From contig BCKL01000004.1 of NCBI GenBank assembly GCA_001600635.1, positions 724,044-788,043 on the forward strand: a stretch of 64,000 nt of DNA. The letters are read 5' to 3'. The notes below the pieces were generated by a model. That model was not told the origin of the DNA. It saw only the letters and a list, made by a program, of their open reading frames with translations, and did not search any database. Positions 2,224 through 43,289 of this stretch are shown here, one piece after another (the first letter of the stretch is position 1; each line of letters starts with the position of its first letter). The stretch is from Leucosporidium creatinivorum. Its lineage: Eukaryota; Basidiomycota; Microbotryomycetes; Leucosporidiales; Leucosporidiaceae. The position numbers and the translations under genes are program-made.

Positions 2224-2936
2224 GCTATGAAATAGTGAGTAGGAGGAGCAGGGAGTAAGAGGAAGGAAGGAGGGCGAGCTGGACTCGCTCTCGCCGAGGA
2301 GGAAGGGAGGGAGGGAGGAAGCTGCTGGGCGGTTCGACGGGAAGGGAGCTGGACTCCCTCAGTGAGTGCATGCTATGCTATGGACGCTTTGCTTGACTTA
2401 TGGGCGTCGTAGACTAGCTGAGAGAGAGCGACATGGGAGAAAGTGAGCTGCGAAGACGGGCGCCGGGCGCCGAGCGCCGAGCGCCGGGGGCTGGGCTTGC
2501 TCGTTTCGGAGGCTTCCTTGGTAGTGAGAGCCAAGGAAAGAGCGCAGACGGTCTCAGAGAATGGTTAAGACGAGGGTACAGGTCGAGATGGAGCATCTCG
2601 AGCGTTGCTGACGGAGCTCTCGCTCGTCGCCTGCGAAGCGCTATCGCCGAGCTCGACCTTTAGTCGTCTGCGAGAGCTCCAGATGGGTTAGTAGGGCTTC
2701 AGAGGACGTCTAGATTCCCTCTGTACCGCATTACTCGCTCGCCTTGAATGACAACCCGACACCCTCTCCGAGGACAAGGGGGCGACGGCTTGTTTCGCCT
2801 CTTGCTCTCCTCCCGCATCTTGCTCTCGCTTCGCTTCTCGTCGCCTACCGCCACCGACAGCTCTCGAGGAATTACAGGAAAGCTCAGCACACGCTCTACA
2901 CTCCTACTACACCTCGTTCACCTCCCCGAACTTGAG
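2224..2936. repeat. 5' flank of MYND unit A (duplicated)
   Basis: No gene is seen. From about 2630 to 2900 the sequence is clearly homologous to the reverse complement of about 35.35-35.05 kb, the 5' flank of MYND gene C. Shared landmarks are the segment around CATCGCCGAGCTCGACCTT, the block ACACCCTCTCCGAGGACAAG and the run GCACACGCTCTACAC just before the start codon. The duplication therefore carried the promoter/leader as well as the gene. Confidence 0.7.
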
Positions 2937-4206
2937 ATGGACCCCGAGATCGCTGCTCGCCTGCCCACGGACGGCAACTACGCTCTCTGTCATGGATGCC
3001 TCAAAGGGGTCGGACCAGGGACACCATTACATGTCAAGGTGTGCTCGGGCTGTCGCCATGCTACCTAGTCAGTCGACGCTGGCGCTTCTCGCGAGGAGCT
3101 GATCGCTGAACGCCGCCTCGTCACATCTGCACAGCTGCTCGTCCGAGTGTCAGCACGCCCACTGGCGCACTCATCGGTCGATGTGTAACACGGCGAAGAA
3201 GCTTGCGGAAGCTGATCAGCTTTCCGCCATGTCCAACCCCACCGCCTCGGCGATGATGGGCGAGGTCGATATCTACTGGAACGCCATCATGGACGAAGCT
3301 TGCATTCTCGCCATGCGCTCAGCTTTCCGCGTGGGCAAGCCTGACGACCTCACCAGGACTCGCATGCTCATGGGACTCTCGCCCCGAAACGATCCGCCAA
3401 CGCTTCACCATCGACACAGCCTACGTCGCGCCCTTCAATCACTTGGACAACATCAACATGGGCGACATGCCGACCCCCAACAACCCCAAGTTCGCCTCGC
3501 TCTTCGAGGCGCAGCGCAAGGGCAACTCGGCGATGGGCTTTGTGAGGATTGTGGCTGGTGATGTCAAGACCGGGGAGGTCTACATGCCTCGTGAGCTGTC
3601 TCCCTTTCCATCGAGGCGTCTGCATGGTGTCGTGTCGAGGTGCAGACACAGCTCGCTGACGGCTCACGTCTCGGGGCTCGGCGCTCTCGGCAGCGGTCGG
3701 GAGGATGCAGGGCCTGCAGCTCGCTCTGTTCGAGTTCATGCACCCATCAGAGATGAAGCTCAACGCGCCATGGGAGGCCACGCTCAGACAGGCCGTCAAG
3801 ATGCCGAAGCCCTACACGCAGAAAGGGCTCGCCATCATGGACTTGGTGAGGAGCGAGTCGAAGGAGCAACTCCGCAATGTCATCGCCAAGGATGTCAAGC
3901 CCAGATTGACACCCATGGGACTTGACCTGTTGACGGAGATCGTAAGCTTTCGCGACGAGTCGAGGAACTCGGCGATTGGCTGACCAAGCCCGAGCCGCTC
4001 ACTCCTCGCAGCAACTCGAAGCATACTCGTTCGACCCAGCGCAGAAATCAGCTGCTCACGCCGCGACTCTACGGATCGTTCAGGTATCGCAGCTCGCAGA
4101 CTCGACGTCGTTGCTATCGCTGACCTTCTTGAGTCTCCAGCAACTCACTCCTGCCCTGCGTACCATGCTGCTCGAGTCTGTGTGCGTCAATCAGGCCTAT
4201 TTCTGA
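2937..4206 (+). pseudogene. MYND zinc-finger protein, copy A (frame disrupted)
   Basis: Exons by comparison with copy C: 2937..3067, 3135..3590, 3694..3941, 4012..4083, 4141..4206. The N-terminus holds a complete zf-MYND: CHGC, CSGC, then YC-SSEC across the first intron, HAHWRTH and a final C. Downstream are the family blocks ILAMRSAFR, PETIRQRFTID and IMDLVRSES. Near 3370 the frame changes. Copy C has LILGVSW between the matching blocks, whereas copy A goes from CTC-A directly to TGG. This fits a deletion of about 14 bases. Everything after it continues open in the shifted frame and splices in phase to a stop at 4204-4206, so the lesion may be recent. MYND fingers bind proline-rich peptides; the role of this family is unknown. 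It could still make a truncated protein. Confidence 0.65.
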
Positions 4207-4895
4207 TGTAGATACGCTGACTCGCGCTCGTCTCCAGTGGTGAAGCAGCCCACAAAAGCGGGTAGTAGGGCACCGAGCTTTCGCGACGTCAGCTCCTCAC
4301 CGCTCGGCGTGGTTCGTGATGGCGCGTGTAGTTTTCATGGAACGCAGCCTCGTACATGTAGAGATTTCTTGGCGTGGACACGACTCTAGGCGCTGGCGGG
4401 AGCGCCGCTGGAGCTGGACGTCAAGCAAGCCTTTCGCCGAGCCCCGAGCGCCGAACACCTCGCTTTACTTTCGCTTGGTCGCCGTCTCGTTAGGTTGACG
4501 AGGTGCTCGCGAGTCGACTTCATTCTCATCGCTCGGATGCAGGAGCTGAGAGCCGCGGGAGAGCGTCGGGCTTCCACAAACGCTCTTCCTGAACGCCTCA
4601 GGGGCATCGCCGAGCCGGACCTCTCCTGGCGTCTGCGAGCTACAGGGAATTCAAACAGGCGATAGGTACACCATTGAGCAAGTTTTGTGCTTATTGAACC
4701 ACTCTGATGTAGCAACGAGAACAACTCGAAAGCTCGCTTCGTTTCTTGCTGTCCATCCTCAGCCTCGCTCGTCTCGCTCCTCGACCTTACCGCCAGCTGC
4801 AAGGGAGCATAGGACAGCGCCTACAGCTTCCAATCGACTACACCACATCAGCCCGTTACCTCCAGCCTTTCTCTCGCGCCTCTCTCAGCTCAACC
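4207..4895. other. spacer between MYND copies A and B
   Basis: No gene is seen. The last 150 bases are weakly similar to the 5' flank of copy D (41.15-41.32 kb), so they probably hold the promoter and leader of copy B. Confidence 0.4.
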
Positions 4896-6034
4896 ATGAC
4901 GGATTCGAGATTCGACTCCCAAGTCGTTGACCGGTGCTCGACATGCCAGAAGGACCTGGAGAAGGGTGCCCAGCTGCTCTGCAGTCGCTGCAAGACGAGC
5001 TTCTACTGAGTCGCATTTCTTTGCTCGCGACTGAGGACGTGACCTCATCGTCTCGCTCTTCACACAGCTGTTCGAAGGAGTGCCAGGTAGATCTCGTCGA
5101 AGTCCTGGGGGCAGAATGTTAGGACTCACGCGCCACTTCACCCACAGGTGCAAGACTGGCCTCAGCACAAGGGCCCTTGCCGGACCCTTCAAGCGCGAGC
5201 TCAGCATATCGAAGAGCACAGTCTCAAGGGTCCCGAGACGACCAACATGCTTCGGGATCTCGATACGTACCGAGCAACCTACTTCCTCAACTACCTCGTG
5301 GGAGTCGCCTTCCGCTCCGCCTTCCGCCTCGGTCGAAATCCCGACCTCCTCAACACCCACTTTTTGCGCTCGGGCTTTCTCTATGACCCCGAGCCTACCG
5401 ACGTCAACAAGCGATTCCGATTTATGGACGCTGGGGTAGTGTCATTTGAGGAGGCCATCGCGAGGAGCAACGACCCGCGCGCTCGCGCCGAGTTGGAGCA
5501 AGGGTTCGAGACGGCCAAGAATCGGGATCTGAAAGCTCACCCCGAGTATCAGAAGGGCTACACGTTTGGCGCTTGTCAGTTCACGGCTCGCCATGTCCGC
5601 ACGGGCAAGGCGTGCTACATCTGTGAGCCGTTTCGCTCGGCTCAGCCGAAGCGTTCGAGAGCTGACCTTCCTTCGCATACTCAGTCACTTCCAACTTTGC
5701 CGTCGAGACCGGCAACGACCCTGTACCCTTCGCCGACGTGCCCATCAACAACAATTGGCTCGCAACTCTCAAGCAGGCCCTCTCGGACCCGCCTCGGACA
5801 TCTCAACAGCTAATGATCCTCGACTGGGAAGCTAGTATGGGGAAAGTGAGAGCGCATGCGATTGTTCGGGAGCTAGCAGCTAAGCAGCAACAAGAGTGGG
5901 CCGACAATTCTGATGCGGTGAGTTGCTACAAATCGAGCGTACTGCTCGGCGATGAGCTTGGCTGAGACCTCCCTCCGCAGCCTCGTCCTGCTCGTACACC
6001 GCAGCAGCTATACAGGGATCGACGCTTGTACTGA
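4896..6034 (+). pseudogene. MYND zinc-finger protein, copy B (abnormal first splice donor)
   Basis: Exons that match copy D one to one: 4896..5005, 5068..5086, 5148..5622, 5685..5917, 5981..6034 (296 codons). The finger reads CSTC, CSRC, Y-CSKEC, H, C. The downstream blocks VAFRSAFRLGR, RHVRTGK and NNNWLATLKQAL match copy D. Every phase is preserved, and exons 2, 4 and 5 have the same lengths as in D. The exception is the first donor: copy D has TTCTA/GTGAGT, while copy B has TTCTA/CTGAGT, so the invariant GT is CT. Reading through gives Tyr then stop inside the zinc finger. Either this copy is not spliced normally or it is a young pseudogene. It has the same unknown role as its paralogues. 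Confidence 0.6.
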
Positions 6035-8320
6035 AGTGAGTACTTCGTTCGATTGTATCGCAGTAACGAGCTCACTCTTCCCTCGTCGATAGGGCGTCGG
6101 CTTCCTTCCCTCCAACTTGGCTCCCGCTTTCTCACACCTCGGACTGAGCAAACATAGACATCACACTCTTCTAGAACTTTCTTATCACCTGCACTCAAGC
6201 TGCAGCTGGAAACAAGCTTGCCTCGTTGTAGACTTGGCCGAACGAGAGACGACTTCGCGAGCGGCTCGAGAGCGGGGAGGAAGAGAAGAGAGCTGAGAAG
6301 AGTAGGCGGCAGAGCTGTGAAGATCCGAGCGAAAAAGGCTCGTTTCCCCCCCTCACTCGACGGGCGCGGACAGGCAAGCAGCAAGCTCACGCGAGAGCAT
6401 CGCCGAACCTTTCCCTCCTCTCCCGCCTCTCTCGCTCTTCGACCATTGCCTCACCCACCACACACGTACATCTTCTCCTACTCGACCCACTCCTACCGCT
6501 GCACGTTCGAACCCACTCTTCACGCTCAACACAAAGTTGACCTCCGGCGTTAAGGAAGCGAGCGGCTAAGGCCTGGCCCAGCAGCTCGGTCGAGATGGGC
6601 AGCTGGGTGGGTTCGTAGGTTGCAGATCGTCCTGTGGCCGTTTGGGCGTGGTGCGGCTGTAGGGTGGTAGGTGTACAGAAGTTGAGCGCAGCTGTGTGCT
6701 AGTGGTCTCGCTGCAGGAGGCAGGCGAGACGAAAGCCATCGCCGAAAGCTCGTCGAGAGGCGGGAGATGAACACGCGGTGCTGCCAGCGCAAGCGAAGCC
6801 TGAACTCGAGCTGGAGAAAGAGAAAGTCGCGCTGTACAGCTGCCGAGCATTCACGCCCTCCCAGCCCGCCTGCAGACCCGTCCAGCCCGCTTCTCGGCGG
6901 TGGAGCAATTTCTTCGTCGACAGTCAAGAAAGCAGATGGGGAAACAAAGGGGGACCGGGAGAGTTGACCAGGACTCTTCCGCTAATTTGTGATATGTGAC
7001 AAGCCCGATTGTGCCCTCCGACTCCAGGCGAAGGGTGTGGCAAAAGGCCAATCGCCGTTCGGGACCTGCTCGGCGCAGTTCTACGAGGCTCCCAGATCCT
7101 CAAGAGCAGGTGCATGGACGCTGCACCACGTCAGCTGTGTTTTCTGCACCGCATGGTGTCCCCTTCTGTCGTCGCACATCTGCGAAGGAGCCGTAGGCCG
7201 CTCGACCCACCTCCTTCCTTCGCGAGCGCCGAGCAGGTCGTGAAAACTCGAGATCGTCGACTGTGCAACCTCGCTCGGAAGGTGACGACCATCCACCTGA
7301 CTTCGACATACCGATCTCGCTCCCTGGCAACGCGAAACAGTCGGCTTCAGCCACCCGTTCAGCGCTCGGTGCGCCGACTGCCTCGAAAAAAAAGGCGGGC
7401 GAAAGGATTTGAGGGAAGGCTCCGGAGACACGGAAGCGAGGAGGGAAGATGTCCTTGCACCCTTGGGTTTCGAACGTTCCGCCAGCAGTGAGAACCTCCT
7501 GGGACGGGACGGAGAGCGTCGGCTGCAGGTTCTCGGTGCAGGAGCGGTCGCCCGGTGAAGCTGGCGAGCAACTTCCTTTTGCAAGGTACGTTTCGAGAGC
7601 CACCTTCGGGCTTGCCCTACCGCCGAGTAAGCTCTCGCGTGGATGCTCGATTGGTAGCTTAACTAGGCGGGATATAAAAGTAGGCGAGGCAGTTGGCTCG
7701 GCGCTGGCTTTCAGTCTACGGCGCTGGCACTGGAGCGAGCAAGGGTTATTGCACTACATGAAAACCATGTTGAAGGAACTCGCACGAGTCTAGGTTGTGA
7801 GCTGCAGGGTGTGCTCCAGGTGTGGCCTCGACTCGACAGGGCGGGCAGAGCGAGCAAAGGTCTCGACCGAATCGCCGACCGCCCCCGCCTTCGCTCTCGC
7901 CTCACTTGCTCTGGGACAGCCTGTCAGATCCTTCTTGCTCCGACCACATCGCATCGTCTGCAGCATTTTTGGCGCCCGCTCGCCTGCCTGCCTGTAGCTT
8001 AACAGCCTCAGCGCCCGCCTTTCTTGGCTCGATCTCCGACCTCCCACGGCCGCAAGCTCCACCTTCCGGTCGCATCGAAAGCCATCGTTCTTGTGATTCT
8101 GCACCTCAAGGCTCGCTTTGACTGGCTGTACATCGACAGTTTTACACGCTACTGCACCCCCGCCAGCAGCCCTCAGCCCTTCAGCCTCAGCCTCACGCAG
8201 CTGCCTTTCCTCCCCTCCCACTCCCCACTTCGCTTCGCTCCCTTTATCGACGGCGCCCGTCCTCTCTGAGCCATCTCCGTCGACGCCGCTCGCTCCAGCG
8301 CAGCTTCGCTACAACCAGGG
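6035..8320. other. 2.3-kb gene-poor region
   Basis: From 6195 to about 6460 the DNA is homologous to 42.63-42.90 kb, the 3' flank of MYND copy D; a shared landmark is GAGACGACTTCGCGAGCGGC. From 6.5 to 7.7 kb many short overlapping open frames occur on both strands. None shows a known domain or convincing splicing, so I call no gene. A TATA-like GGGATATAAAAGT lies near 7670, followed by CT-rich leader-like DNA that runs up to the homeobox gene. Confidence 0.5.
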
Positions 8321-10698
8321 ATGAACCAGGTGTCCCCCAGCCAACGTGAGTGCCCTTGCACCGAGATGAAACGGCAGACGAGGTAGCAGCGACCGACGGC
8401 GCGGCCCTGTCAACAGCGAGCGGTTCGCCTCGGGAACGGCTTCGAGCACGAGCTGACCAGGTTGAACTGCTGCAGACTACGACATGTCACCAACAAGATT
8501 ACAAGGCAACTCGCTACATGCTTCGCCTCACCTCCTACCCCTTCCTCCACCCGCTTTCTCTCGTCACTCGTCGCAGTCGGACGCCTCGGATGCCTCCGAG
8601 TCGAACCCGGCGCACCACAACGCTCGGGCGGGCTTGGGAGAGCTCTCAAATCAGCCCAACATGCTCGCCTTCCAGGTGCAGCCCGCAGGGACCTACGGCG
8701 TGCAGCAGCCATCGCCGAGCGCCGCAAGCGACGGTTCGCGCCAGTCTCGAGGTTCGCTCGTGCAGAGCAATGAGGACGGACAGAACTCGGGCTCGGGAGG
8801 CGATGGCGACAACAGTGCAGATTTCACCCAGACCTTCTACGATCCCTTCCGGTGAGTTTCTGCGCCTCAGCTTCCCCTTTAACCCCCCGGTTCCGAGCTC
8901 ACGCGCTTCTCCCTTCGCCAGGATCAAGCACCGTCGCAGGACGTCGCCCAACCAGCTCAAGATCCTCGAGTACCACTTTGAGCACAATCCCAAGCCCGAC
9001 GTGACTTTAAGGAAGGCGCTGTCAGAGCAACTCGACATGACGCCGCGAGAGGTGCAGGTCTGGGTGAGTTGCCGCTTTGCGATAATTCGCCTTGCGCGCG
9101 ACGACTGGGAGGAGAGCATTCGCTGACCTTCTCACCCTTCTCTGCGTCCACTACAGTTTCAGAACCGCCGAGCCAAGACCAAGAAACTGCGCGAGAAGGC
9201 GGAGAAGGAGGCGGGCTTCCTCAACGCCGAAGACTCGAACCTCGGCGGACGCCCATTGCTCGACAATGGCTTCGGCGGGGCTCCTCGATCCTCGCTCGGC
9301 GGTATGGACCCACACCAGCAATATGGCGGCCGCACCGATGCTCCCCTTCCCGCTCTGCCAGCCCTCCCGCCGAATCTGCAAGGGCCCGGCGCCGACTACC
9401 TCGCTTTGCGCCGTGGAAGCTCGCCTGCCGTCCTCAGCTCGGGTCTCGTAAGACCAAACGGTAGCGCATACTACGAACCACCACCAATGCACCGCGGCCA
9501 CAACGTCTACGCTCCTCCACACCAGCCTCAGCAGCCCTCCTTCTACGCCGCTCACCCCAACCTCCCTTCCGCTCCTCCCGCTCCCACCAATGTCTACCCT
9601 AGTCCCATGTCCGTCTCGGCATCGGGTCTTTCGACTCCTTCGCCCAACGAGCTACAGCAGTCGCCATTCGAGTACCTCCACCAGTCGCCCACGAGTCGAA
9701 ACGGCGAGGACAACCGAGGAGGCAGGCGCTTCAGTCTTCCCGCCTACAACAGCAACTACGCGGTCGTACCAGCAGGAGACTCGTCCATGATGCACCAGCA
9801 GCCACCCCAGCAGCAGCAGCAGCAGTTCCCCCTTCCCCAGCAGAACTTCGGAACCACCTCCTACGCCTCGCCGCCTCTCGACGTCCAGTCTCTCCTCACC
9901 GAGATGAACTTTGCGCCCATCGAGGGCTACGATGCACCTCGTGAGGAGGGCTACTCTCCTCCCTCGAGCGGCGAGGAGCTGCCTGCCGACTACGGCGCTT
10001 CCTCCTTCCCCGGCTCGGCTCTCCCTCCCACCACCAACGGCCAGCAAGCCTTCCCCCTCAGCCAATACACGTTTGGCGGTCCCTCCTCCACCTCCTTCGG
10101 GCCTACTCCTCCCTTCGAGAACCTCGCGCAAGGTGGACCTCCCCCCATCTCAGCACAAGGCATGTACAACCTCAACGAACGGCGAGCGAGCTGTCCCGCG
10201 GGCTTCATTCCCACGTTCGACCACCTCGCCCTCTCTTCGCCTACTACCTCTGCAGCTCAATACCCTCCAGTCTACGACGCCTCGCCTCTCGCTCTACCCC
10301 AGCAACTCCCCCTCCAGCAGCCGCCACCCATGAACCTCCAGCGCCGACACTCGCTCGCCCCGACCTCTCCTTCCTACATCTCCACCTCGCCTTCCTCGGG
10401 CGGCTTCTTCCACCCTCAGATGCACAACAATAACGCTCGACGAGGATCCACGTCTTCCGCTCTGGGCACCATCAACGAGTCGCTCGGAGGAGGCGGCCAG
10501 CTGAACGACCCCAGTCGCTCGGCGAGAAGGGTTCGGAGCCAGAGGGAGTTGGTCGGCCCTTACGCCAACCCCAGGCGGTCTCCTCAGCCCAATCCGGAGC
10601 GGCGAGATAGCTTCACGGCTCCTGGACCTGGACAGGCAGAGTGGGAGGGGCAGCAGAACCAGCAGGGGCAGATGGTCGACCCCTTCGTGATGGCTTGA
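8321..10698 (+). CDS. homeodomain transcription factor
   Basis: Model: join(8321..8345,8476..8851,8922..9063,9157..10698), 694 residues. The homeodomain lies at about residues 134-195. It runs from RIKHRRRTSPNQ through LKILEYHFEHNPKP and ends in VQVWFQNRRAKTKK. The last intron falls exactly between the W and FQNRR of recognition helix 3. The NPKP/TPR spacing resembles fungal Pho2/Hoy1-type homeodomains rather than TALE or mating-type HD1 proteins. The remaining 500 residues are low-complexity: Ser/Pro-rich, a QQ-rich tract near residues 355-375, and repeated RRxS basic patches (RRGS, RRFS, RRAS, RRHS) that look like PKA-type sites. It should act in the nucleus as a DNA-binding regulator; targets cannot be read from the sequence. 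All introns contain GCTGACC-type branch sites. The start is the first in-frame ATG of exon 1. Confidence 0.85.
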
Positions 10699-11101
10699 GA
10701 CGACGTAGCGTAGCAGCTTATATCCCCCCCTTCCACTCCCTTTCGCATGGTCTTCATTCTCGCATCTCTTCCTCCCACTCGTTTTACATACGTATCTGTT
10801 GTAGTGCTCCCCTTCGCAATGAGGTCCTTCATCGTTCGCTTCGAGTTGCGCCGAGAGTCGAGGACCGGAAATCGAGAGCAAGTGGCCAGACTCCTGAGCA
10901 CAGCGAGACAGACCAGTCCCGTATCACAGGAGCCGCAGAGACTCGCGCCTCGCCCTTCAGCTCTCTCCCTAGCAGACTCAATGGACCTCAGCCGTAGCTA
11001 GCTCCCCCCTTCTCTCATCTCAGGCGAATCGGGACGACGAATGACGGTAGATGAGTCCATGGGCTTGCACTGCATTTTGTTACAGACGGGTATAGATGTT
11101 T
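10699..11101. other. convergent intergenic region
   Basis: This lies between the 3' ends of the homeobox gene and ARPC4 and should hold both polyadenylation regions. No further gene is seen. Confidence 0.5.
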
Positions 11102-12059
11102 TCAGGCGAACTGTGGGAGTCGAGAAGGGTCAGCGATCATCTTCAGAAGGAGCTCGGCGGGCGGCAGGGTGATGAGGCGACTTGCAGAGGAAAGGAAGGA
11201 CTCTGCGACTATACGTGCGCGGGCGTTGAGGGAGAGCTTGGCCTCGGAGATCTCCTTGTCGACGGCTGTAGGTGATTGCAATGTCAGCGATGCTCGGTCT
11301 GGCCTCGAGGCGAGCGGAGGCTGATTGTCAGGCTTAAACTCACCCTCCATGAACCTGAGAGCAGCGGGGGGAAGCGAGGGGTAACGTTAGCTTTCTGCGA
11401 ATCTCCTGAGTCCTCGCATAGACCACTCACTCGATGACAAAGTCGACGAGCTTGTGCTTCATCATGTCCTCGACATTGCGGTTCGTGACGAGGAAGGAGA
11501 TGTCGTATCCCTTGACGGGCACCCTCCTCAACACAACGAAAGCCTCTGCTCGCATCATGAGGAAGCGGGTGAACTTGTGGGCGAGGATGCGTTCAATGTC
11601 GTCGGCTTGCTTGATGCGGATCGACAGGCGGACCGAGTTGATGGAGGGCTCGATGAGGACTTGTTCGGAGGAGTTGCGCGAGATGAGTAGAGGAGTGAGG
11701 AGCACTTCCGGGGTGGATCTGTAGGGAGGCAGCAACGCCGAGTCAGCTCTCAGTGGGGGCGAGGAGAGCGTTGACGTGCGCGTGGGTGCGGGGAGTGGGA
11801 GATGGTGATGATGAGGAGTGCTGAGAGAGCAGCAGGGAGACGCCGAGAGGCACATCGAGGTGCAGAGCGAGAAGAGCGACTCACTGAGCCTCAATCTCTG
11901 CTACATTGTGCCGCTCGGCGACCTGGGAAGGGAAGCTCTCGAGTGTGAGGGCGGCGGTGAGGGTGGACCTGACGCAGGCGAGGTACGGCCGGAGAGTGTT
12001 GCTCTGTAGAAGGTCAGATCAGCTGCCGTCGACGACTCTGCCGGGGAGCAGCTCACCAT
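11102..12059 (-). CDS. ARPC4: Arp2/3 complex subunit 4 (p20/Arc19)
   Basis: Exons 5' to 3': 12057..12059 (ATG only), 11885..12003, 11431..11718, 11344..11354 (11 bases), 11102..11265; 194 residues. The protein matches ARPC4 almost throughout: [81 protein letters not shown]. With ARPC2 this subunit forms the core of the complex that nucleates branched actin at endocytic patches. Two oddities stand out. The initiator codon is an exon by itself next to a GTGAGC donor. The C-terminus runs about 25 residues beyond the usual end near RIVAEEFL (about 168 residues in most species). The gene is divergent from RPC9, with about 270 bases between the start codons. Confidence 0.93.
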
Positions 12060-12330
12060 TGCGAGAGAGACGCGGGGCGCGAGCGAAAGGCGAACAAGGG
12101 CGAGAGAAGGGCGATTCGAGTGCTGATGAGGTGCTCCGAGCTGCCACTAGTAGATATCCTGTACGGGAGCGAGCGAGAGGGCGAGACGAAGCAGCAGTGA
12201 ATGGGCAGAGGAAGAGCGACGAGGGCGAGCTCGCAGCTCTGTTTCCTACCTCGTTCGTCGCTTCTGCTGCTTCTTCTCCCTCTGTTCGCCTACAGCTCTA
12301 CGACTAAGCCTAGAGCAGCTGTAGCACATT

Positions 12331-31942: not shown

Positions 31943-33267
31943 ATGTTCAACTCTGTCCTCGATGGCAGCAGTCAGCCGCTCCTAGCGACAGTACACCAAG
32001 CGCACTCCTACCTCGCTTCCACCATCCCTTCGCCCTACTTGTACGTCTACAGCAGCCCACGCTTGCTTCGTCATTGCCGCCCGCTGAGCTGACCTCCGAC
32101 GACGAACCGAACGCGGGCTACAGCCCCTTCTCCATCTTCTCTATCATCCATGCTACTCGGATTGCTTGCGCCTACCGTGGTGGAGCTAGGGCAGGAGGGT
32201 TCGACGACCGTATTGGGTGTGAGTGGGCTCAGCTCAAGGCGCTAAGTTGACCCGTCGAGTCGGAGCGTGAGAGCTGATGTTGGTCTGGCGCCCGGTTTCT
32301 GCAGTGTTCCAAGCTGCTCTTGTACCCTTGGTGCTCATCTTTGGAGGAACGACCATCACGGGAGCGCTCCTAGGCATTGTGCCCGGTTGGCTCATCTCGC
32401 CTATCCCCGTGGCGACCTACGGGTGAGACTGAAGCGCTGTAGCCTTCTCCGTATCGTCTCACTAACACTCTGCATCTCGACAGCATCCTCCCCCTCCTCG
32501 CGGCCAAGACGGGCGTCGTCTCGGCCCTCCTCTCCCTCCCCTACTACCCTCGCGAGCTCGGCTTCTGCCTCATCGACGGCTTCTCCCGCATCGTCGGCAT
32601 CACGACCTTCGGCGTCGACACGGTCCTCGCCCACCCTAACACCGCCCTCCGCTCCTCGCCTTGGGCCATGATTGCCGTCGCAACCATTGCCGGAGGAGGA
32701 GGAGGAATGATTGTGCCCGCGTTCAAGGGGTTCCATGCCGATTGGAGCTTCTCGAACACGCCTGGATGGGTCAAGGATGGACCGGGGATTGATATCTGGG
32801 GAGCTACTGTCATTGGTTACGTTTACTCGTAAGTTTGGGTTCGCCTTCGCCGAGCCGAGGAGTGAGAGCTGACCTTCGGCCCCCTCAACAGCACTCTCAT
32901 CGACGCCCACCCCTTCTTCCGCCTCCTGCCCAACGCCCTCTTCGGCCACCTACCCTTCCTCTCCTCCTTCTTCCCTAAGGGCTACGCTACCAACGCCGCG
33001 TCGACCCCACTCCTCCAACCTCACGAGGCCAAGATGTACGCTGTCTCTCCACTTCTTCCCTCATACTCTCCACTGAACCTCTCTATGCGACTTTACAGCG
33101 CCTGCTCCCTCCTCCTCGCGGGCATGCTCGCCCTCCGAATCCTCAACCCTCTCCTCTCCAACGCCTTCAAGCCCTCCAAGGCGAGCAAGAAGGCGCTCAA
33201 GGCAAAGTCGAGCTCCACCGCCGTCGCTTCGAGCAAGAAGAGCATCAAGGAGAAGAAGACCCAGTAG
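31943..33267 (+). CDS. TRIC-like ER membrane channel protein
   Basis: Model: join(31943..32040,32124..32218,32305..32422,32484..32828,32892..33035,33099..33267), 322 residues. Several hydrophobic helices are visible, including LVPLVLIFGGTTITGALLGI, AMIAVATIAGGGGGMIVPAF, ATVIGYVYSTLI and SLLLAGMLAL. The pattern FGG...GALL, then WAMIAVATIAGGGGGMI, then GYVYS-LIDAH resembles the GGG-containing helices of trimeric intracellular cation (TRIC) channels, which balance charge during Ca2+ release from the ER. The resemblance was judged by eye. The C-terminus is Lys-rich and ends KKTQ, which fits the KKXX di-lysine ER-retrieval signal. An alternative is another fungal multi-pass ER protein of unknown function. 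Confidence 0.6.
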
Positions 33268-33749
33268 ATCGCTTGTCCCTCCTCTATCCTCTATCCCTAT
33301 TCGCCCCTCCCACTTCAACCGACCCGAACGACCCCTCCTCACCCGCCGTACCTCCCCACCCGCCGTACCTCCCCACCCGCCTACTAACGAAGTAGAAACG
33401 CCTCCCCGACAAAGATCAAGAACGCCGCTGTTGCAAAGGACCCATTTTGTTGCGGTACCAACTGGTCCAGAGGCGAGGGAGAGGAAGCTCGGCGAAGGAG
33501 GTCGGGTCGCTTCGCTTCGCTTGCGTCTCGGCTTGGAGCTTGCAGTCTGCTGTGCCCTTCCGTCGTTCTTTCCTGGTTACTACTGTACTTCGAGAGGCTT
33601 GCTATAACGATGGGCTACGAGGACGACTACGCGCGCGCGCTCGGCTGTTGGGAGGCAAGCTCGGCGCTCTACCAGCCGGTTCCACGGACCGCTTCGGATC
33701 TGTGCACAACGAGGATTTAGGCTTTAGCTTCGGGGATGAGCGATAGGAC
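33268..33749. other. intergenic with short tandem repeat
   Basis: This lies between the 3' ends of two convergent genes. It contains a 17-base tandem repeat (listed separately) and nothing else recognisable. Confidence 0.4.
33334..33384. repeat. 17-bp tandem repeat, 3 copies
   Basis: Units of CCTCCCCACCCGCCGTA at 33334-33350 (one mismatch), 33351-33367 and 33368-33384 (last bases diverged). Confidence 0.85.
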
Positions 33750-35018
33750 TTACACAGCGGCACTCTGTGCTTGCCAAGCGACAGGACCGGCGCGCTGGAG
33801 ACGGAAGTGAGAGTTATCAGCGAGGCTACGACCGTGTGGCCGTGGTCTGGAGCCATACCCTAACCCTTTCGATCATCTTGAACTCCAGAGCTCGTCGCTC
33901 AGCGACATCGGAGGAGAATTGGAGAAGTTGCTGAGAGCGAAGTCCGAGGGTCAGCCTCGGCTCGGGACGCGTAGTCGGTTCTGCTGATCATGTAGAGACA
34001 GCTCACAATGTCTAGTATGTCGTCGATAAGCTTGGGAGGCGTCCCAGCCTTCAAGTCGTGGACGAGAATCTCGCGCACTCGCGCCTTCGGCTCGCTCCTG
34101 ACCAAGTCCATCACGGCCAGCGCATCCTTGCCAAGCGGCGTGGCCATCTTGGAGCCCTCCTTGAGCGTTTCTAACCATCGGAATTGAGCTGCGCCTCCGC
34201 CAGTGGGAGAAAGGGGAAGCAGCCGAGGGCTACAGACTGGAGCCTGATCGAGGCTGCCGAAAGCCGAACACCGAGGTCGCGAGTCGCGAGTCAGCCGCCT
34301 GTGCCCGCCAGCGTGAGAGAGACATACATATCGAAAGCAAACCGGCTCACGAGGTGCATAGATCTCTCCCGTCTTGAGGTCCCGGGCAATTAGCCTGACC
34401 AAGCCCAACGCAGAGTCAGTTCGCCTAGCTCCTTCAAAGGCCCTTGCGAAGTCGGGATTGACGTGAGTAGGCAGTTTGTCTGATTGGGCGTCCTTGGCGT
34501 GACCGAAGGGAACTACGTGAGCGTCGTCAATGGTGAAGCGCTCTCGTATCGTCTCGGGGCGAGGATCCCAAGACACGCCCAGGATGAGCAGGTGTGTGCC
34601 GGTAAGTTGGTCGGGTTTGCCTAGCCGGAAGGCGGAGCGCATGGCGAGAATGCAGTACTCGCTCGTCACCTCGTTCCACCGTACGTCCAGCGTATCCTTC
34701 ATCGCCGAGGCCGAAGGATTGGACATGGCGAGCGTTTCGTCGACCTCGGCTTGACGCTGCGCCGCTTTACACGCCTTGCCGTGCTTCTTGCGCCAGGCGG
34801 CGTGCTGACATTCAGTCGAGCAGCTGAGAGCACCAGCGATTAGCTCGGCGCGTCCTCCGCCGCATTCCGCTCTCGCCTACTCACTAGGTGACAGTTCGAC
34901 AACCCGAGCAGAGCTTCGCCGGGAGTGTCGTTCCTTCTCCGACATCCTTTGAGCATCCTCCGCACTTTGCGACGTTGCCACGCACAGGCTTTCGGCTAAG
35001 GATTTCGGCGCGGTTAAT
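33750..35018 (-). pseudogene. MYND zinc-finger protein, copy C (start codon apparently lost)
   Basis: Exons 5' to 3': 34885..35018, 34343..34823, 34007..34243, 33865..33930, 33750..33794; about 320 codons, all in phase. The finger reads CGGC, CSGC, Y-CSTEC, HAAWRKKH and C. Shared family blocks are ILAMRSAFRLGK, SWDPRPETIRERFTID, LARAF-like helices and VMDLVRSEP. The position equivalent to the ATG of copy A is ATT here (35016-35018). In-frame ATGs exist only further upstream, near 35257 and 35354, within leader-like sequence. The second donor is ambiguous: GTGAGC after 34351 would shift frame, whereas GTTTGC after 34343 keeps it. The copy may use an upstream ATG, and otherwise looks whole. Confidence 0.6.
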
Positions 35019-35360
35019 TCCAGGAGGGGGAGGGGGTTGGCCGGGGAGGGGGATTGGAGGTGTGTAGAGCGTGTGCCGAGCTTTCCTGCGCTTCCCCGAG
35101 AGCTGTCGGCGGCGGTCGAGACGAGAAGCAAGTTGTGGGAGGAAAGAAAGAGGCGAAACGAGCCGTCGCCCCCTTGTCCTCGGAGAGGGTGTCGAGTCGG
35201 AACACAAGTGCGACCCAGTGAATAGGTACAGAGTGAATCTAGAAGCCTTCTGGAGCATTTCTGACCCACCTGGAGCTCTTGCAGACGACACAAGGTCGAG
35301 CTCGGCGATGGCGCTTCGCAGTTGGCGGAGTTTTAAGCGCCGACGAAGAAACATCGAGGA
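35019..35360 (-). repeat. 5' flank of MYND unit C (duplicated)
   Basis: Homologous to about 2630-2936 on the plus strand (5' flank of copy A); see that entry. It remains open in frame with the first exon, so a longer N-terminus cannot be excluded. Confidence 0.65.
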
Positions 35361-35519
35361 CTAGCAATACACCTCGGCAGCTCTTGAGGACTGTAGGGCA
35401 GCATTCTCGACGCACGGGAGGTAACAGATACAACAAGCTCTGCCATCGCTAGCCCTTCGCCGCGACCGCTCTCTCGCGCCAAGCTGTCGAGGAAAGTCCA
35501 GAACTGCGACTCTACCAAT

Positions 35520-36924
35520 TCACCACTGCTTGTCTACACTGCCGTCTACTCCTCCCAACAGCTTCGCCAACTTCTCCACTACGGCCTTGCACTCCTCCTC
35601 CGTCCCGACCGTAATCCTCAAGCAAGCCTCACACCCGACCTCATTCCCCCTGAATCTCACAACGACCTTATCCTCCCTCGCCATCTTCTCATACACTCGT
35701 TGCGCCTTGGCGTTATCCGGCTTTCCCTCTTTATCACCCACTTGGGCGAGAAGGAAGTTGGCGTGAGGGGCGCCGAGGATTTGGAGGATGGAGGGGAGGG
35801 CGAGGAGGGCGGTGGTGAGGGTGGTGCGGTTGGTGAGGAGGGTGGAGATGTTCTTGTTGAAAAGGGTTAGGCCGGAGGTGGAGAGAGCGCGCTTGGCGAG
35901 AGTGGCGGTCGGAGTGGAGATGTTGTAGGGGGCTTTGATATTGTTGAGGACTTGGATAATCTCGGGGGAGGAGAAGGCGAGACCGAGACTGTGAAGAGAG
36001 AGGAGAGGTCAGCCTTGACATGAAGAGCAATAACAGGCAAGACAACTCACCGAATCGCAGCGAGACCGAATCCCTTGCTGAGCGTCTGCAGCACGACCAA
36101 GTTACTCCATCCCTCCTCGACCAGCAGCTTGATCGCCGATGACCCCTCGGGTCCGAAATCAATGTAAGCCTCGTCAACGATGACCAGTCCCGTGTAGTCG
36201 GGGTTGGCGAGGACAGCTCGGATGTCGTCGAGGGGGATGAGTGTGCCGGTAGGGTTGCCGGGAGAGCAGAGGAAGGTGAGCTTGATGGGATTGGGAGTGG
36301 CAGCAGCGGCAGAGAGGGTCGCGTTGATCTGTTCGATGGCGGCCATTAGCTGAAAGCCAGCCGGGAGGGCGCTCGGCGCTGACTCACCTCGTCAACCTTT
36401 GGCCTGAAAGCACCTCCCTCGACGTCCAAGTTCAACTTGACGACCTCTACATCATTGATCTGAGCGCAAACGCTGTACATGCCGTATGTAGGAGGGCAGA
36501 CGAGCACTCGATCCTTGCCGGGGATGCACGAGATGCGGAAGAGCAAGTCGATGGCCTCGTCTGATCCTACGCCGAGGAAGATGTTGTCGGGTGAGGGTAC
36601 GTTGCGGAAGGTGCAGATTTGCTGCTTGAGATCGAGGTGGAGTGGGGAGGGGTAGCGGTGAAGTGAGAGGTCGTCGAAGGCGCCTGTTGCCGCGAGAGCA
36701 TGGGAATCAGCGAGCTGTACCCGAGTAGAAGCAGCAGGAGATTCACCTTCATCTAAATTAGCTCCTGGCGATGGGAGCGAGTGACCGAGAGCGTTCTCGT
36801 TGGCGTCCAAGAGGATGCCCTCATCGTAATCGTCTCGGGCGCAACGGTAAGGCTGCAGGGCCAAAATGTTCTTGCGAATCGCCTTGTCCAGCCTGAATTG
36901 AGCGGGTTTCGGTGTAACAGTCAT
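35520..36924 (-). CDS. HIS5: histidinol-phosphate aminotransferase
   Basis: Exons 5' to 3': 36388..36924, 36051..36349, 35520..35988; 434 residues. This is a class I/II PLP aminotransferase of the HisC type: ILLDANENALG near the N-terminus, FLGVGSDEAIDLLFR, PPTYGMYSVCAQ, LCSPGNPTGTLIP, IVDEAYIDFGPEG and TLSKGFGLAAIRLG, with the PLP-binding Lys at about residue 271. It converts imidazole-acetol phosphate plus glutamate to L-histidinol phosphate, step 7 of histidine biosynthesis. The length is usual for fungi, with a Ser/Ala-rich insertion near residue 55. It is divergent from CIA1, with only 121 bases between start codons. Confidence 0.95.
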
Positions 36925-37045
36925 TTTGTCGAATTAGAAGCAGCGAGAAGTAGGAGGGAAAGAGGTGCAAGTTGACTCGTCGGCAGCTCTCCCTCCGCGA
37001 TTACGGGCGACTTTCTTGACTCTTCAAATCGACCTACAGAAGGGC
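36925..37045. promoter_or_regulatory. very short divergent promoter HIS5 / CIA1
   Basis: 121 bases separate the two start codons. A TGACTC word, the core of the Gcn4-type site (TGASTCA), lies at 36974-36979 as TTGACTCGTC, and a CTTGACTCTTC lies at 37015-37025. Control of HIS5 by a Gcn4-like factor is plausible but inferred. Confidence 0.35.
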
Positions 37046-38644
37046 ATGACTCGGATCCAAGAGATTGTTACGCTAACAGGGCACACAGATAGGGGTGAGC
37101 TACAGCTCCCACTGCTAGGCTACAGAGCTCAGCAGCTAATCGCGCTCTCCTCGAACAGCCTGGCACGTCTCATGGTCCCCTGCAGCTCCCATCCTAGCCT
37201 CGTGCTCCTCCGACAAATCTGTACGATTATACTCGTACACCCCACTCCCCTCTCCTCGCTTCCAGCTCCAATCGACGATTCCCACCTCGCATCAACGCAC
37301 CGTTCGCTCCCTCTCCTTCTCTCCCACCGGCGCGACCCTCTCGACCGCTTCGTTCGATTCAACTGTAGGCATCTGGCAGCAAGCGGATGAGGCGGGCATT
37401 GATGATGGAGCGACTGGGACTGCAGCGGATGGAGAGTGGGAAGCAGTGGATCCGCTGGAAGGGCATGAGAGCGAGTGCAAGAGTGTAGAGTGGAGTGCGG
37501 ATGGCAGGCTGTTGGCTTCGTGTAGTAGGGACAAGAGCGTATGGGTCTGGGAAGGTGAGTTCCAGCTTCGGTGTTGAGATTCGAGGCGCGTCGGCGAGAG
37601 GAAAGCTGACCTTCGCTCTCTGCACCTCGATAGCTGTCGGTCCAGCAGAGTTCGAATGTCTAGCAGTACTCATGGAGCACACTCAAGACGTCAAGTCGGT
37701 GACCTGGCACCCTTCCGAGGAGGTGGGTCGGTCGTCTCGGCTTCCCTCCAGCTCGGTTTCGCTGACCTCCATCTCCTTCCAACAGCTGCTCGCCTCAGCC
37801 TCCTACGACGACACCATAAAGCTCTTCTCCGCCGACCCCTACGACGACGAATGGGCCTGTCACACGACCCTAACCTCGCACACCGCGACCGTCTGGTCCA
37901 TCTCCTTCTCCCCCTGCGGCAACTACCTCGCCTCCGCAGGCGACGACCTCGTCATCAAGATCTGGGGGCGCGATTCCCTCGTCACTCCTTCCTCGGAGGA
38001 ATTGGGAGAATTGGGAGAAGCGAAGAGGGAGGAGGGAGGCAGGATGGGGCCTTGGAGTAGTGGGGGTGTGAGGATCGGAGACAAGGAGAGGTGGAAGTGG
38101 AGTTATAAGGGCGAGATTGAGGGGGCGCATGAGAGGACGATTTATGCGGTCGATTGGGGGAAAGGAGGGGTCAGCGCCGAGGAAGGGGGGCTAGGAAGGA
38201 TCGTCTCGTGTGGTGGGGATGGCAAGATTAATGTCTTCCAGCTCGTGAGTCTTCTCCCATATTTGAGCTTCTTTCTATAGGAGCGCAGCTGACTCGCCCG
38301 TCGACCCACAGAGCAAGCCCTCCACCGCCGGCGAGATGCCCTCCCACTCCCTCCTCTCCACAATCGAATCAGCTCACGGCGTCTCGGACGTCAACCACGT
38401 CTCCTGGTGCAAACTTTCGCCCGCCAAAGCTGCTGATACCCTGCGGCGATTGGAGGGAGGCGAGGGCGAGGATGAGGGAGAGAAGATGGACACTGAGGCC
38501 GAGACGGAGCAGCAGGAGGAGGACCCGCGGTGGAAGGGAGTGGAGAATATGTTCGCCAGTGCGGGAGATGATGGGGAGGTCAAGGTGTGGGTCGTTGGAG
38601 AGGAGGGCGTGGAGCCAACATCGACGGCCGAGACGAAGGAATAG
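37046..38644 (+). CDS. CIA1: cytosolic iron-sulfur assembly WD40 protein Cia1
   Basis: Model: join(37046..37094,37159..37554,37634..37722,37786..38244,38312..38644), 441 residues. Seven WD-like repeats can be followed: AWHVSWSP...KSVRLY, HQRTVRSLSFSP...STVGIW, HESECKSVEWSADGR...KSVWVW, HTQDVKSVTWHP...DTIKLF, HTATVWSISFSP...LVIKIW, AHERTIYAVDW...KINVF and VNHVSWCK...GEVKVW. The pairing of SECKSVEWS with DVKSVTWHP is typical of CIAO1/Cia1. Cia1 is the propeller of the CIA targeting complex that hands Fe-S clusters to nuclear and cytosolic apoproteins. It is longer than the usual 330-350 residues because of Glu/Asp-rich insertions in repeat 5-6 and repeat 7 loops. It is convergent with the kinase. 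Confidence 0.88.
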
Positions 38645-38761
38645 AACATCTCGCCTTCCGCTCGCTCTTCTTGGTTGAGACCTGCGAATATGCTACAAGA
38701 GAGGCGAGTGACTTGTACAACAGTATCACGACTACCGCTTCCTCTTTCAACGACATCCCAC

Positions 38762-40292
38762 TCAAACAGCCACCCTCGTATCCTTCCCCTCGCCGATGAA
38801 CGTCGGCCTCCTCTCCAACGCCGAAGGGGTCGTCGGATCGTCCTCCTCCTCCCCATCCCCGGCTGCAGTACTAGGGTCCAAAAAAGTCTCTTGCGGTGGT
38901 AGTGGCACGGGATCCTCGTGTTCGACAGGACTCGCGGGGCGGGATTTGGCGGCTAGGAGCCACGGGTGGTGTAGCGCTTCGGCGGCGGTCATGCGCTTGT
39001 CGGGGTCCACTACGAGGAGCTTGCGGATGAAGTCTTTGGCTGTGGGTTTGAGGGCTAGGTCAGCGATGCGCTTCAGAGGGGTGGGAGAGGTGCAAGACGA
39101 ACCCTCCTCCGAGATGTTCTCCCAGGTGCGAGGAAAGTAGAGCTCCGTCGTCCTTGCTTCCTCGGCGATCTGGGTGGGGATCGTAGCGCGATAAGGGAAC
39201 CTCCCTCCCATCATCGCAAACGTGATGACCCTGCGCCACGAGGCTGGTCAGCTCTCTAATCCCCTTCGCCGAACCTGGCATCCACTCACCCTAAGCTCCA
39301 GCAATCAGCAGGGATCCCATACCCATCGCTCGAGTACATCTCCGGTGCGCTGTAGCCTGCTGAGCCGGCGATGACATGCAGCTTCTGCTCTGGCTTGATC
39401 TCGACGGCGAGGCCAAAGTCCGAGACGACACAATCGTCGTGGCCCATGCCGTTCTGACCTGGTGGGTTGCGGTAGAGGATCTGTGGGTACAGAGAGGTCA
39501 GCTATGGATGGATATCGCGCAGAGCGAGACGACATACGTTCTCGGGCTTGAGATCTCGGTGCACGACGCCGCGAGAAGCGAGGTAGGCCACGGCATCCTG
39601 GTTCGGTCGTCTCATTAGCTTGATTTCCCTGTTCGAGGATGTGGGAGACACTCACTGCCAACGCATAAGTCACCTCCCTCGCCTCCTCCTCTCCAAACCT
39701 CCCCACATCAATCAAATGCTCGTACAGCTCTCCTCCCGCCGCGAGCTCAAAGACGAGGTAGAACTTGTCCCTCGATTCGAACCATTCCCGCAAATGAACG
39801 ATATGAGGGTGAACCAGAGTGGCGAGCGAGTTCTGTCGGACTACTTGCGTGGGGATGTCGCTGATCTTGGCCTGCAGGGAGGGAGCAGAGTGAGCTTCGG
39901 GATCGGCCATGGTGGGAGAGCGGACGGACCTTGGGGATGATCTTGATGGCCACCTGTATCGTAGCAGCGGTTAGCTCTTCTGTCCCTGTCGCTCATAGCT
40001 CCCCGCTGCTTCTTCAACTCACCTCATCTCCAGTCTCTAATGACGTTGCCTGCTTCACCTCGCCGAATCCACCTCTGTAGAGCAGCAGGAGGTCAGCTGA
40101 GGTATTCGAACCCTTCCTAGCCACAGGACCCACGCTCCCAGGTGTCGGCCGATGCGATATTGCCTCTTCCTCTTGCTGTTTGAAGCCGCGCAGAAAGGCG
40201 GGGAAGTCAGCAACTTGCCGCTGGGGGCTGCTGCAGTACAGGAGGATGAACACGTACTGTGAGGAAGGCTGGCCAGTGAAATAGTCGAGCAT
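38762..40292 (-). CDS. Ca2+/calmodulin-dependent-type protein kinase
   Basis: Exons 5' to 3': 40258..40292, 40134..40175, 40023..40074, 39930..39953, 39656..39871, 39538..39597, 39290..39480, 38762..39230; 362 residues. A complete kinase: glycine loop GAGGFGEV (about 25-32), VAIK Lys47, HRDLKPEN 136-143, DFG 164-166, APE, then GLG-like CWSLGVITF. The catalytic domain ends LHHPWL. The CAMK-family features (N-terminal short lead RKRQYRIGRHLG, LVFELAAGGELYEHL, ISEEGSSC insertion) favour a CMK1/CaMKI relative. The C-terminal tail of about 55 residues is acidic and Pro-rich and lacks an obvious basic amphipathic calmodulin-binding helix, so calcium control is unproven. Six of the eight exons are shorter than 200 bases. 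Confidence 0.85.
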
Positions 40293-41325
40293 CGTGTGCT
40301 CGGGCGTTGGGAGGCGAAGTCGATGAGATGAGGCGGGAGGGAGAGAGCGGTCGGCGGCAAGCTCCGAAGGGCAACTTCGCTGGTGGCTTTCACAGGCCGA
40401 AACTGTGTTCGGTTGAGGCTAAGTTGGTACTTTGTGATGAGAGGAAGGAGAAGAGTGAGTGAAGCGGAACACGGAAAGCTCGCTTGTTCGACTCTTGGCG
40501 ATCCAAGTCCGCCTTCACCGAGCCTCCGAGTCAGGCCACCAAGCTGCTCGCTGTGGGCCAAGCTTTCGACTTGTTCTGGTGAAGGATTTGCCGAGCAGGA
40601 AGCAAGACCTGACTTTGGCAACATCCTCTACACCACGACCTGCGCCTCTCATCGCAGCAGGCCGGAATCATCTCTCTCGGCCCTCGCCAGCTCAGGTTTT
40701 TGCTGCCTGCACCAGCTTCGAGGGTTCTCAACAATCCCTATACGGATAGAAGATGTATTATGATGCTCTTGAGGTCATCGGGAAGTTTTCGAGAGTCGAG
40801 GCAGGCCACCAAGGCCGCCTGAGAGCGAGAGTGCCCTTCACCGAGCGCCGAACTCCATTCCTGCTCTTCCTGAGGCGTCTTGCTGCACTGTGAAGGCAGC
40901 AACAGCTTGAGCAAGATTCGAAGGACTACTTGAGCCGCTGCTCGGCTGGTATAAAACGGTACAACTATCTGCCCACTCTACCCCAAGGTCCCCTGCGAAA
41001 CTTCATCGCCGAGCTTGCCCTGACGCTGCCTGTTGGATCTGTAGGGAGATTGATCGGGCTCGCGAGGGGCTTGAACCGAGCTTTGATTGCCAGCACGAAG
41101 CACGGAGCCGAGTAGAAAGCGACTCGGCCGCTCGCTTCGAAGCGCTTCGTCTCTTGCTCTCCTCCCATCCTCTCGCTCGCCTCACTTCTCGACGCTACCG
41201 CCTACGACCACCTTCGAGCGAGCTCGGGACACATTTTGCAACTTCAGAACGACTACGGCACTACAGCCCTATCCGGCCAGCCCTTGTCGCCCTCCTAACG
41301 GACTCGCCTCAGCTCAGCTCAGCTC
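40293..41325. other. intergenic, upstream of MYND copy D
   Basis: No gene is seen. GGTATAAAACGG at about 40949-40960 is a good TATA-like sequence, 370 bases before copy D. The last 180 bases resemble the copy B leader. Confidence 0.4.
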
Positions 41326-42463
41326 ATGGCGGAGCCAGCCTTCGAATCGCGGGTTGTCGATTGGTGCGCAACTTGCCGAAAGGATCTGGAGAAAAGTGCA
41401 CAGCTGCTTTGTAGTCGCTGTAAGACGTGCTTCTAGTGAGTCGCGTTTCTTTGCCCGCGACTGAGGACGTGACCTCATCGTCTCGCTCTTCACAAAGCTG
41501 CTCCAAGGAGTGCCAGGTAGGTCTCGTCGAGTCCCTGGGAGCAGAATAGAAGGATGAACGCGTCCTTTCACCCGCAGGTGCAAGACTGGCCTCAGCATAA
41601 GCGCGTTTGCCGGACTCTCCAAGCGCGAGCTCAGCATGTCGAGGAGCAAAGCCTCAAGCGACCCGAGACGACCTACATGCTTCGGGATTTGGACACAGCA
41701 ACTCCTCACTACCTGCACTACGTCACTTCAGTCGCCTTTCGCTCTGCTTTCCGCCTCGGTCGAACTCCCGACCGAACTGCCTCCCATTACCTCCGCGTCG
41801 ACTTCCTCTACGACCCAGAGCCTGCCGACATTCCGAAGCGGTTCAAATTCCTGGAGGCTCGGTCGGTATCGTTCGTCGAGGCGCTCGCAAAAACGACGGA
41901 TCCTCGCGCTCGCTCCGAGCTGCAGCATGCGCTCGATACTGCACGGGCTCGAGATCAAGTGCCTCGTCCCGAGCATCAGAAGTCCTACGTTTTTGGCGCT
42001 CTGCAGCTCATGGCTCGCCATGTCCGGACTCATCAGTCCCGTGGCATCAGTGAGCGACCTCTCTCGATCCAGCCGACCGCCGACCGAGCGCCGAGAGCTG
42101 ACCTTCTTTCGCCCATGCAGTGAGGTCTAACTTCTGCATCGACGCGAGCGACGAGGATCTCCCCTTCCACGAAGTTCCGACCAACGAGAACTGGGCTGCG
42201 ACGCTCAAGCAAGCCCTCACGGGTCCGCCGCTGAGCAATCAGCAGCTTACGATCCTCGACTGGTCCGAAAGCTTCGGAGTCGAGAAGACCAACGTGATTG
42301 TTCGCGGACTAGCTATTGAGCAGCAGAGGATGCTGGCGGCCAATCCTTCGATGGTGAGCAGCCAGAGATGAGCTTCGGACCCGAGCTTCTCGCTGATGCC
42401 CTCTTTCAGCCGATTCCAACAGCCACGCCAAATACTTTCTACAGAGATCGAGTGCTGTACTGA
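41326..42463 (+). CDS. MYND zinc-finger protein, copy D (intact)
   Basis: Model: join(41326..41435,41498..41516,41578..42049,42121..42353,42410..42463), 295 residues. An N-terminal zf-MYND begins almost at once: CATC, CSRC, then Y-CSKEC over intron 1, H and C (Cys/His spacing C-x2-C-x9-C-x2-C). The second exon has just 19 bases. The rest (VAFRSAFRLGRTPDR, YDPEPADIPKRFKF, ARHVRTH, NENWAATLKQAL, TILDW, FYRDRVLY at the end) is shared with copies B, A and C but matches no family I can name. MYND fingers are protein-protein contacts, often in chromatin regulators, but no SET or other catalytic domain is present. This is the reference member: all splice sites are canonical and all phases agree. Confidence 0.75.
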
Positions 42464-43289
42464 GGTGAGCCTTCCTCTCCTCGCCTGGTTGACTGTCGAG
42501 CTGACCTCTCTCGCGTCGACAGGTCGTCGGCTTCCTTCCCTCCAACTTGCCTCGCGCTATCTCACAATCCCCACTGAGCAAACCTAGCCATCACACCCTT
42601 CTAGACCTTTCTTTCGCTTGCAGTCAGCTGTAGCCGGAAACGAGCTTGCCTCGTTGTAGACTTGGCCGAGCGAGAGACGACTTCGCGAGCGGCTCGAGAG
42701 CGGGGAGGAAGAGAGGTGCGCCGAGGCCAGTAGAGAGCAGAGCTACGAGGACTCGAGCAGAGACGCTCTGCTTGCACCCTCACTCGACGAGCGCGTACAG
42801 GCAAGCAGCAGGGTTGTTCGACAGCGTTGCCGAACTTCTCGTTCGGCCTCAGGCTCCTGCCTCTCTCGCTCCTCGACCCATCAGCTCACCTTCAGGCATG
42901 TATATGATCTCCTCACAGCGTTTCGAAAAGCATGTCGTAGTGCTTTGCTGCGATACGCTGTGACTCGGCTGGTCTCTTCAGTGATGGTCATGAGTCTGCA
43001 CATTGCATCGCCGAGCTCGAGTCTCGGGGCGTCTGGAGTGCTGCAGGACGTTCTGCTTCGGCTGGATCCTTAAGAGTCAAGGCGGATGCGTCACTCCGAG
43101 CCATGGAGTCGTGTTGGTGCCAAAGTGTCGCTGAGCTGTCGCGTAGAGCTCTCGCCGAGTCCAATCTCTCGCCGTCTTCTATGGCCGACTCCAGTATGGG
43201 TTCAATGTCCATCGTTCCGTGGTCGCGCAACATATACAGTGAAAGTCTAAACAACCAGAGAACAGAAGAGATGAGAGATGAGATGCAGT
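42464..43289. repeat. 3' flank of MYND unit D (duplicated) and spacer
   Basis: About 42530-42900 matches 6090-6460, the 3' flank of copy B; a landmark is GAGACGACTTCGCGAGCGGC at both sites. The duplicated unit therefore extends about 400 bases past the stop codon. The rest to 43289 has no recognisable feature. Confidence 0.7.

Follow-up and report, generated by a model that had tools for sequence, protein, structure and literature searches.

A large family of intron-split MYND-finger genes with a divergent C-terminal region in Leucosporidium creatinivorum

Proteins with a MYND zinc finger are known from several fungal and animal systems, and these provide the closest comparison for the genes described here. 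For basidiomycetes, Table 3 of PMC4469406 gives zf-MYND counts of 26 for R. glutinis, 11 for S. roseus and 7 for M. lychnidis-dioicae, with 41 in the Agaricomycetes column, and the same source reports an enrichment of the domain (q = 7.82e-5) in a narrower comparison within Pucciniomycotina. Animal MYND fingers bind PXLXP-type peptides and corepressors, and peptide specificity varies between fingers (PMC3555993), while Mub1, a fungal MYND protein, is a partner of the Ubr2 ubiquitin ligase (PMC3567142). Here we describe a family of MYND-finger genes found in a window of 64,000 nucleotides from Leucosporidium creatinivorum (bases 724,044-788,043 of contig C4, in a genome of 27.7 Mb and 63 contigs), and all counts and comparisons that follow rest on this one genome. 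A first-pass annotation of the window had noted four copies of such a gene, here called A to D, and had proposed that they represent a fast-turnover family in which a finger is joined to an uncatalogued domain.

The family extends well beyond these four copies, contrary to the outcome (a genome with no further copies) that the first-pass annotation had set as grounds for rejecting its proposal. A consensus query built from the end of the finger and the adjoining linker finds 51 places at E ≤ 0.01, 45 of which extend beyond the RSAFRLG motif, and 40 of these 45 lie at E ≤ 1e-6 across the 27.7 Mb genome. The loci are very unevenly distributed, as contig C4 makes up 1.50 of the 27.7 Mb (5.4% of the genome) yet holds 25 of the 45, with nine more on contig C29 and the rest on C10, C7, C5, C33 and C1. 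Tandem runs in which the genes are 1-2 kb apart occur on C4, for example four genes at 587.7-592.9 kb and three at 341.7-345.0 kb. Such counts derive from exon matches and are to be read as lower bounds. At least five of the 17 members that were read are broken, namely A, B, C, L020 (with a TGA in exon 3) and L021 (with exon 1 out of frame), and this too is a lower bound, given that the C-terminal exons of the L-numbered members were incompletely read. The proposal of a large, fast-turnover family is thus supported.

A second property common to the family is an intron within the finger itself, at a split Tyr codon (TA/C), which the first-pass annotation had also recognized. A GT..AG intron is present at this position in 15 of the 17 members read; copy B has the intron with CT at its donor, and L019 does not fit the pattern. 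An exon-by-exon scan of the genome with PF01753 lists 88 matches but none on C4, where the family is missed because its finger is split by the intron, and the fixed finger intron hides the family from exon-wise domain scans. When the exons of copy D are joined, the finger matches zf-MYND in Pfam with E = 4.9e-12 (46.1 bits against a cut-off of 22.7) and keeps the eight C4-C2HC ligands (C14, C17, C29, C32, C38, C42, H50 and C54). By eye, the zinc ligands are kept in 15 of the 17 members and are incomplete in L019 and L021.

The remainder of the protein is not catalogued. Pfam recognizes only the finger, in agreement with the initial description of a finger plus a further region with no catalytic domain. 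Nothing significant was found by Pfam beyond the finger in D, and a scan of 14 members with the finger removed gave a best value of 0.051, in one of the 14. The C-terminal domain matched no PDB sequence at E ≤ 10, and D has no convincing match to an NCBIfam model. Exon 3 of D (positions 41578-42048, plus strand), which comprises the end of the finger, a helical stretch, the RSAFRLG motif and an alpha/beta part, was modelled from an alignment of D with four more window rows, and the predicted structure is alpha/beta with a predicted local distance difference test (pLDDT) score of 64 and a predicted template modelling (pTM) score of 0.60; a single-sequence fold of the same exon (pLDDT 43.5) was not used. 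A Foldseek search with this weak partial model gave best E values of 0.13 in PDB and 0.083 in BFVD, and none at or below 0.001. The fold search suggested at the outset thus placed the region in no known family, within the scope of exon 3 and a weak model, with which a known fold may still be compatible.

The four copies in the window are real, as shown by self-BLAST and alignments, and they represent two types that were separately duplicated, as originally proposed. Copies B and D are 71% identical over 1,770 columns and A and C, which are inverted, are 68% identical over 849 columns, and a tree of 17 rows has support of 99/99 for B+D and 98/95 for A+C. Copy D (41326-42463, plus strand) is intact, with an open reading throughout its five exons (41326-41435, 41498-41516, 41578-42049, 42121-42353 and 42410-42463) and a product of 295 amino acids. 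Copy B (4896-6034, plus strand; exons 4896-5005, 5068-5086, 5148-5622, 5685-5917 and 5981-6034) has the same exon layout and shares 177 of 295 residues with D, and the sole lesion found in it is in the first donor, where CT follows the TA of the split Tyr codon in place of the GT of the other copies; its other exons are open. Copy A (2937-4265, plus strand), delimited by alignment with C and by its frames, with its end set by eye, contains one finger intron and is broken by a 14-base gap relative to C, at which the frame changes while the following exon keeps its reading in the shifted frame. In copy C (33669-35018, minus strand, low end set by eye), ATT occupies the position of the ATG of A in the A/C alignment, and a one-base gap leads to a TAG after intron 2. 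The second finger intron is present in B and D and absent from A and C. The conditions first assigned to the four copies are all borne out by alignment, frames and donor comparison, although for C the missing ATG had been noted but not the one-base gap, and A and C had been ended slightly short, since a by-eye comparison of the two adds a last exon (to ~4265 in A and ~33669 in C). A separate observation concerns the finger introns of B (5006-5067) and D (41436-41497), in which 58 of 62 bases are identical, above the surrounding coding sequence, and whose likeness may be due to a tract of local conversion or to conservation of a signal.

A DNA-level mosaic is present in the pair L021 (C4, 373 kb, plus strand) and L025 (C4, 409 kb, minus strand). 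These are 96% identical over 780 bases that run from the promoter, through the first two exons and introns, into the first ~78 codons of exon 3. In 60-base bins the identity is 97-100% at L021 bases 1201-1740, drops abruptly within exon 3 to 38-80% at 1741-2400 (660 bases, C-terminal) and is 75-100% at 2401-3300, and identity in introns 1 and 2 is on a par with that of their flanking exons. The 780-base stretch matches only L021 and L025 in the genome, while a search with either divergent 660-base stretch recovers nothing beyond that stretch and a 116-base segment of its partner at 79%. Cassette donors located elsewhere were considered and rejected, as the genome search with either 660-base stretch found none. 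The same mosaic shape is present in graded form in B and D, where identity is 94% in intron 1, 72% in exon 3, 62% in exon 4, 46% in intron 4 and 80% in the 3' flank (6035-6444 at B, plus strand; 320 of 401 aligned bases identical). The likeliest cause would be ectopic gene conversion of the outer parts between inverted copies, with the C-terminal stretch spared, and conversion accounts most simply for a front half of L021 and L025 with matching introns and a back half whose probable introns differ.

The coding regions of the window pairs appear to have been under purifying selection for the greater part of their history. For B and D, the nonsynonymous (dN) and synonymous (dS) divergences are 0.293 and 0.952 (dN/dS 0.31, 295 codons), and for A and C they are 0.355 and 1.212 (dN/dS 0.29, 149 codons on both sides of the gap in A). 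Diversifying selection, as expected of a non-self recognition repertoire, was not found over the whole aligned regions of B/D and A/C, and dN/dS values near 0.3 in both pairs lend it no support as the cause of the divergent coding parts; in L021 and L025, one stretch of 21 codons has a dN of 0.54 and a dS of 0.51. The flanks diverge less than synonymous sites, both in the 5' flank of A and C (2631-2936 at A, plus strand; 237 of 294 aligned bases identical), where the Jukes-Cantor (JC) distance is 0.224 and the coding dS 1.21, and in the 3' flank and intron 1 of B and D. Linkage of the family to a mating locus was also considered and was not adopted, since a STE3 match is on contig C25 and a Homeobox_KN match on C24 rather than on C4, although these contigs could share a chromosome. 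Such mating-type matches, together with the spliced genes, are consistent with a basidiomycete.

We propose, with about even confidence, that these genes constitute a birth-and-death, lineage-expanded family of non-enzymatic finger adaptors with a variable C-terminal domain. The predicted architecture is an N-terminal C4-C2HC MYND finger, a helical linker with the RSAFRLG motif and an alpha/beta C-terminal domain, and the family would have evolved through duplication, both local and inverted, through ectopic conversion of the outer gene parts, and through decay. That the products are most likely adaptor proteins is a functional assignment by analogy, made because other MYND fingers bind peptides or a ligase (PMC3555993; PMC3567142) and because D keeps all eight zinc ligands. 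With lower confidence, the finger may dock the proteins onto a shared partner via a short peptide motif and the divergent C-terminal domain may bind different clients, in which case the family could supply interchangeable adaptors for recognition or regulation. Several observations weigh against this proposal. Only L021/L025 shows the mosaic in its sharp form, and A and C have a conserved 5' flank (81%) but no clear downstream recovery. The probable introns in the back half of L021 and L025 diverge as much as the coding sequence, so the divergence need not be selected, and the dN/dS of about 0.3, which is not that of a recognition surface under diversifying selection, is the main evidence against a recognition role. 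The differing specificities of MYND fingers (PMC3555993) mean that partner binding is not readable from sequence. There is also a lone CAS_CSE1 match (E = 0.0035) in one of 15 members in an earlier Pfam scan, although it does not recur with the finger-less alignment and is taken as chance.

An intracellular recognition repertoire, in which a constant finger and linker, kept alike by gene conversion together with the promoter, are joined to a variable C-terminal sensing domain such that many sensors converge on one finger partner, appears improbable to us. The first-pass annotation had offered recognition or chromatin control as examples, and nothing in our analysis ties the family to either, with the dN/dS of both pairs near 0.3. 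A plainer alternative, which falls short of an even chance but is to be taken seriously, is neutral birth and death, whereby ordinary transcription or ubiquitin cofactors drift in number by unequal exchange with no recognition role and the mosaic is conversion between inverted copies. The same dN/dS values fit this, as do the many broken copies, the tandem and inverted arrangement and the divergence of L021 and L025 in probable introns as well as exons, while the persistence of 45 loci sharing this finger and intron, with frames open, suggests retention of many of them, and the difference between flank and synonymous divergence in A and C also speaks against simple drift. That difference, together with the 3' flank and intron 1 of B and D, could instead reflect constraint on promoter, finger and splicing signals rather than conversion, as could the related 5' element upstream of unrelated genes described below. 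We regard this as unlikely, as constraint alone does not explain how introns of L021 and L025 that are 97-100% identical per 60-base bin adjoin sequence at 38-75% only a few bases on. Spread of the copies by a mobile element carrying the gene seems to us very improbable. The dispersed inverted copies, flanks included, would suit such an element, but every copy read retains its introns, so that retrocopies are excluded, the copies cluster on a single contig and in tandem arrays, and no transposon domain occurs in the 19 distinct open reading frames (ORFs) of the window that were scanned, terminal repeats and target-site duplications around the copies not having been searched for.

A pyrimidine-rich element lies 5' of A at 2799-2827 (plus strand) and of C at 35124-35152 (minus strand), with weight-matrix matches of 39.8 and 40.8 bits that are not independent, given that the matrix was trained on eight rows with A and C among them. 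The element occurs at 165 places in the genome with up to three mismatches, compared with none for the reversed control, and 17 of the 82 places with up to two mismatches are upstream of a MYND or family match and no more than 2 kb from it. All seven matrix matches above 22 bits in the first 200,000 bases of contig C31 (C31:1-200000) are 5' of MYND genes (seven of the ten MYND matches there). The element also precedes an F-box-like gene (L049), a RING gene (L051) and other genes, and a weaker match lies before the aminotransferase gene of the window; the idea that it is private to MYND genes was therefore dropped, although it is enriched there. It is common to the split-finger family and to a second MYND family on contigs C31 and C11, and in two divergent pairs two copies of it are located back to back, ~50 bases apart.

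This second family (L003-L008 and L029-L048) consists mostly of long open frames with a degenerate finger at the extreme C-terminus, in which the last ligand is lost. Divergent pairs account for 16 of 21 MYND matches on C31 and four of seven on C11, with fingers ~2.2-2.4 kb apart. L005 (C31, 203.6 kb) and L006 (233.5 kb) are a near-identical inverted pair of C-terminal-finger genes, ~90-100% identical per 100-base bin over ~2.8 kb. The notion that the C31 divergent pairs represent two partner clades was abandoned, as a right-hand gene from one pair and a left-hand gene from a different pair match at 89%. On contig C6, 12 of the 20 MYND matches form six divergent pairs at ~957-1209 kb, with finger exons ~240-280 bases apart, which suggests N-terminal finger genes with common short two-way promoters. 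Within the window, the ORF scan places genes for Dfp1/Him1, an aminotransferase, a WD40 protein, a kinase, a multicopper oxidase and a homeodomain protein around the copies, together with an ELP6-like match that is under its cut-off. The leaders of two F-box-like genes (48189-48997 and 51121-51961) form an inverted pair that is 70% alike over ~850 columns, comprising 5' sequence and the first codons, and without detectable likeness in the remaining coding part; the F-box match itself is weak (E = 0.0084, under cut-off).

The MYND expansions of basidiomycetes have been published as counts with no mechanism, at least in the available part of the source, and this genome provides a concrete, testable case. 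It offers one delimited subfamily whose intron position is fixed, a domain not yet catalogued, and a paralog pair in which the boundary between constant and variable parts can be placed within a single exon. Binding of different clients by the variable part would make the family a fungal adaptor repertoire; without it, the family would be dispensable and would illustrate cleanly how conversion drives mosaic evolution. It was first put forward as a candidate for an undescribed system, but domain counts already published (PMC4469406) record MYND expansion in the Microbotryomycetes, which is thus known in kind. The expansions of Microbotryomycetes and Agaricomycetes likewise involve large numbers of MYND-finger proteins, and as far as the available part of that source extends they are given as domain counts only, the C-terminal domain, the clustering and the mosaic not being described there. 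For the domain combination and its mosaic, no paper was found in literature searches of open-licence papers. With the SMYD methyltransferases the family shares the MYND finger, and when the family profile is compared with PDB sequences, SMYD and other MYND fingers match best. These matches cover only profile positions 1-25, which is the finger, and, unlike SMYD, D has no Pfam match to a SET domain at E ≤ 10. The finger of Mss51 (zf-Mss51, PF13824) matches that of D weakly (E = 0.049, 14.3 bits against a cut-off of 27), zf-MYND scores far better there, and the Pfam scan reports no Mss51 C-terminal domain for D. A likeness in proposed role exists with Mub1, although Mub1 is a single conserved protein. 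Like Mub1, a non-enzymatic fungal MYND protein that acts as an adaptor (PMC3567142), the members of the family proposed here would be non-enzymatic adaptors.

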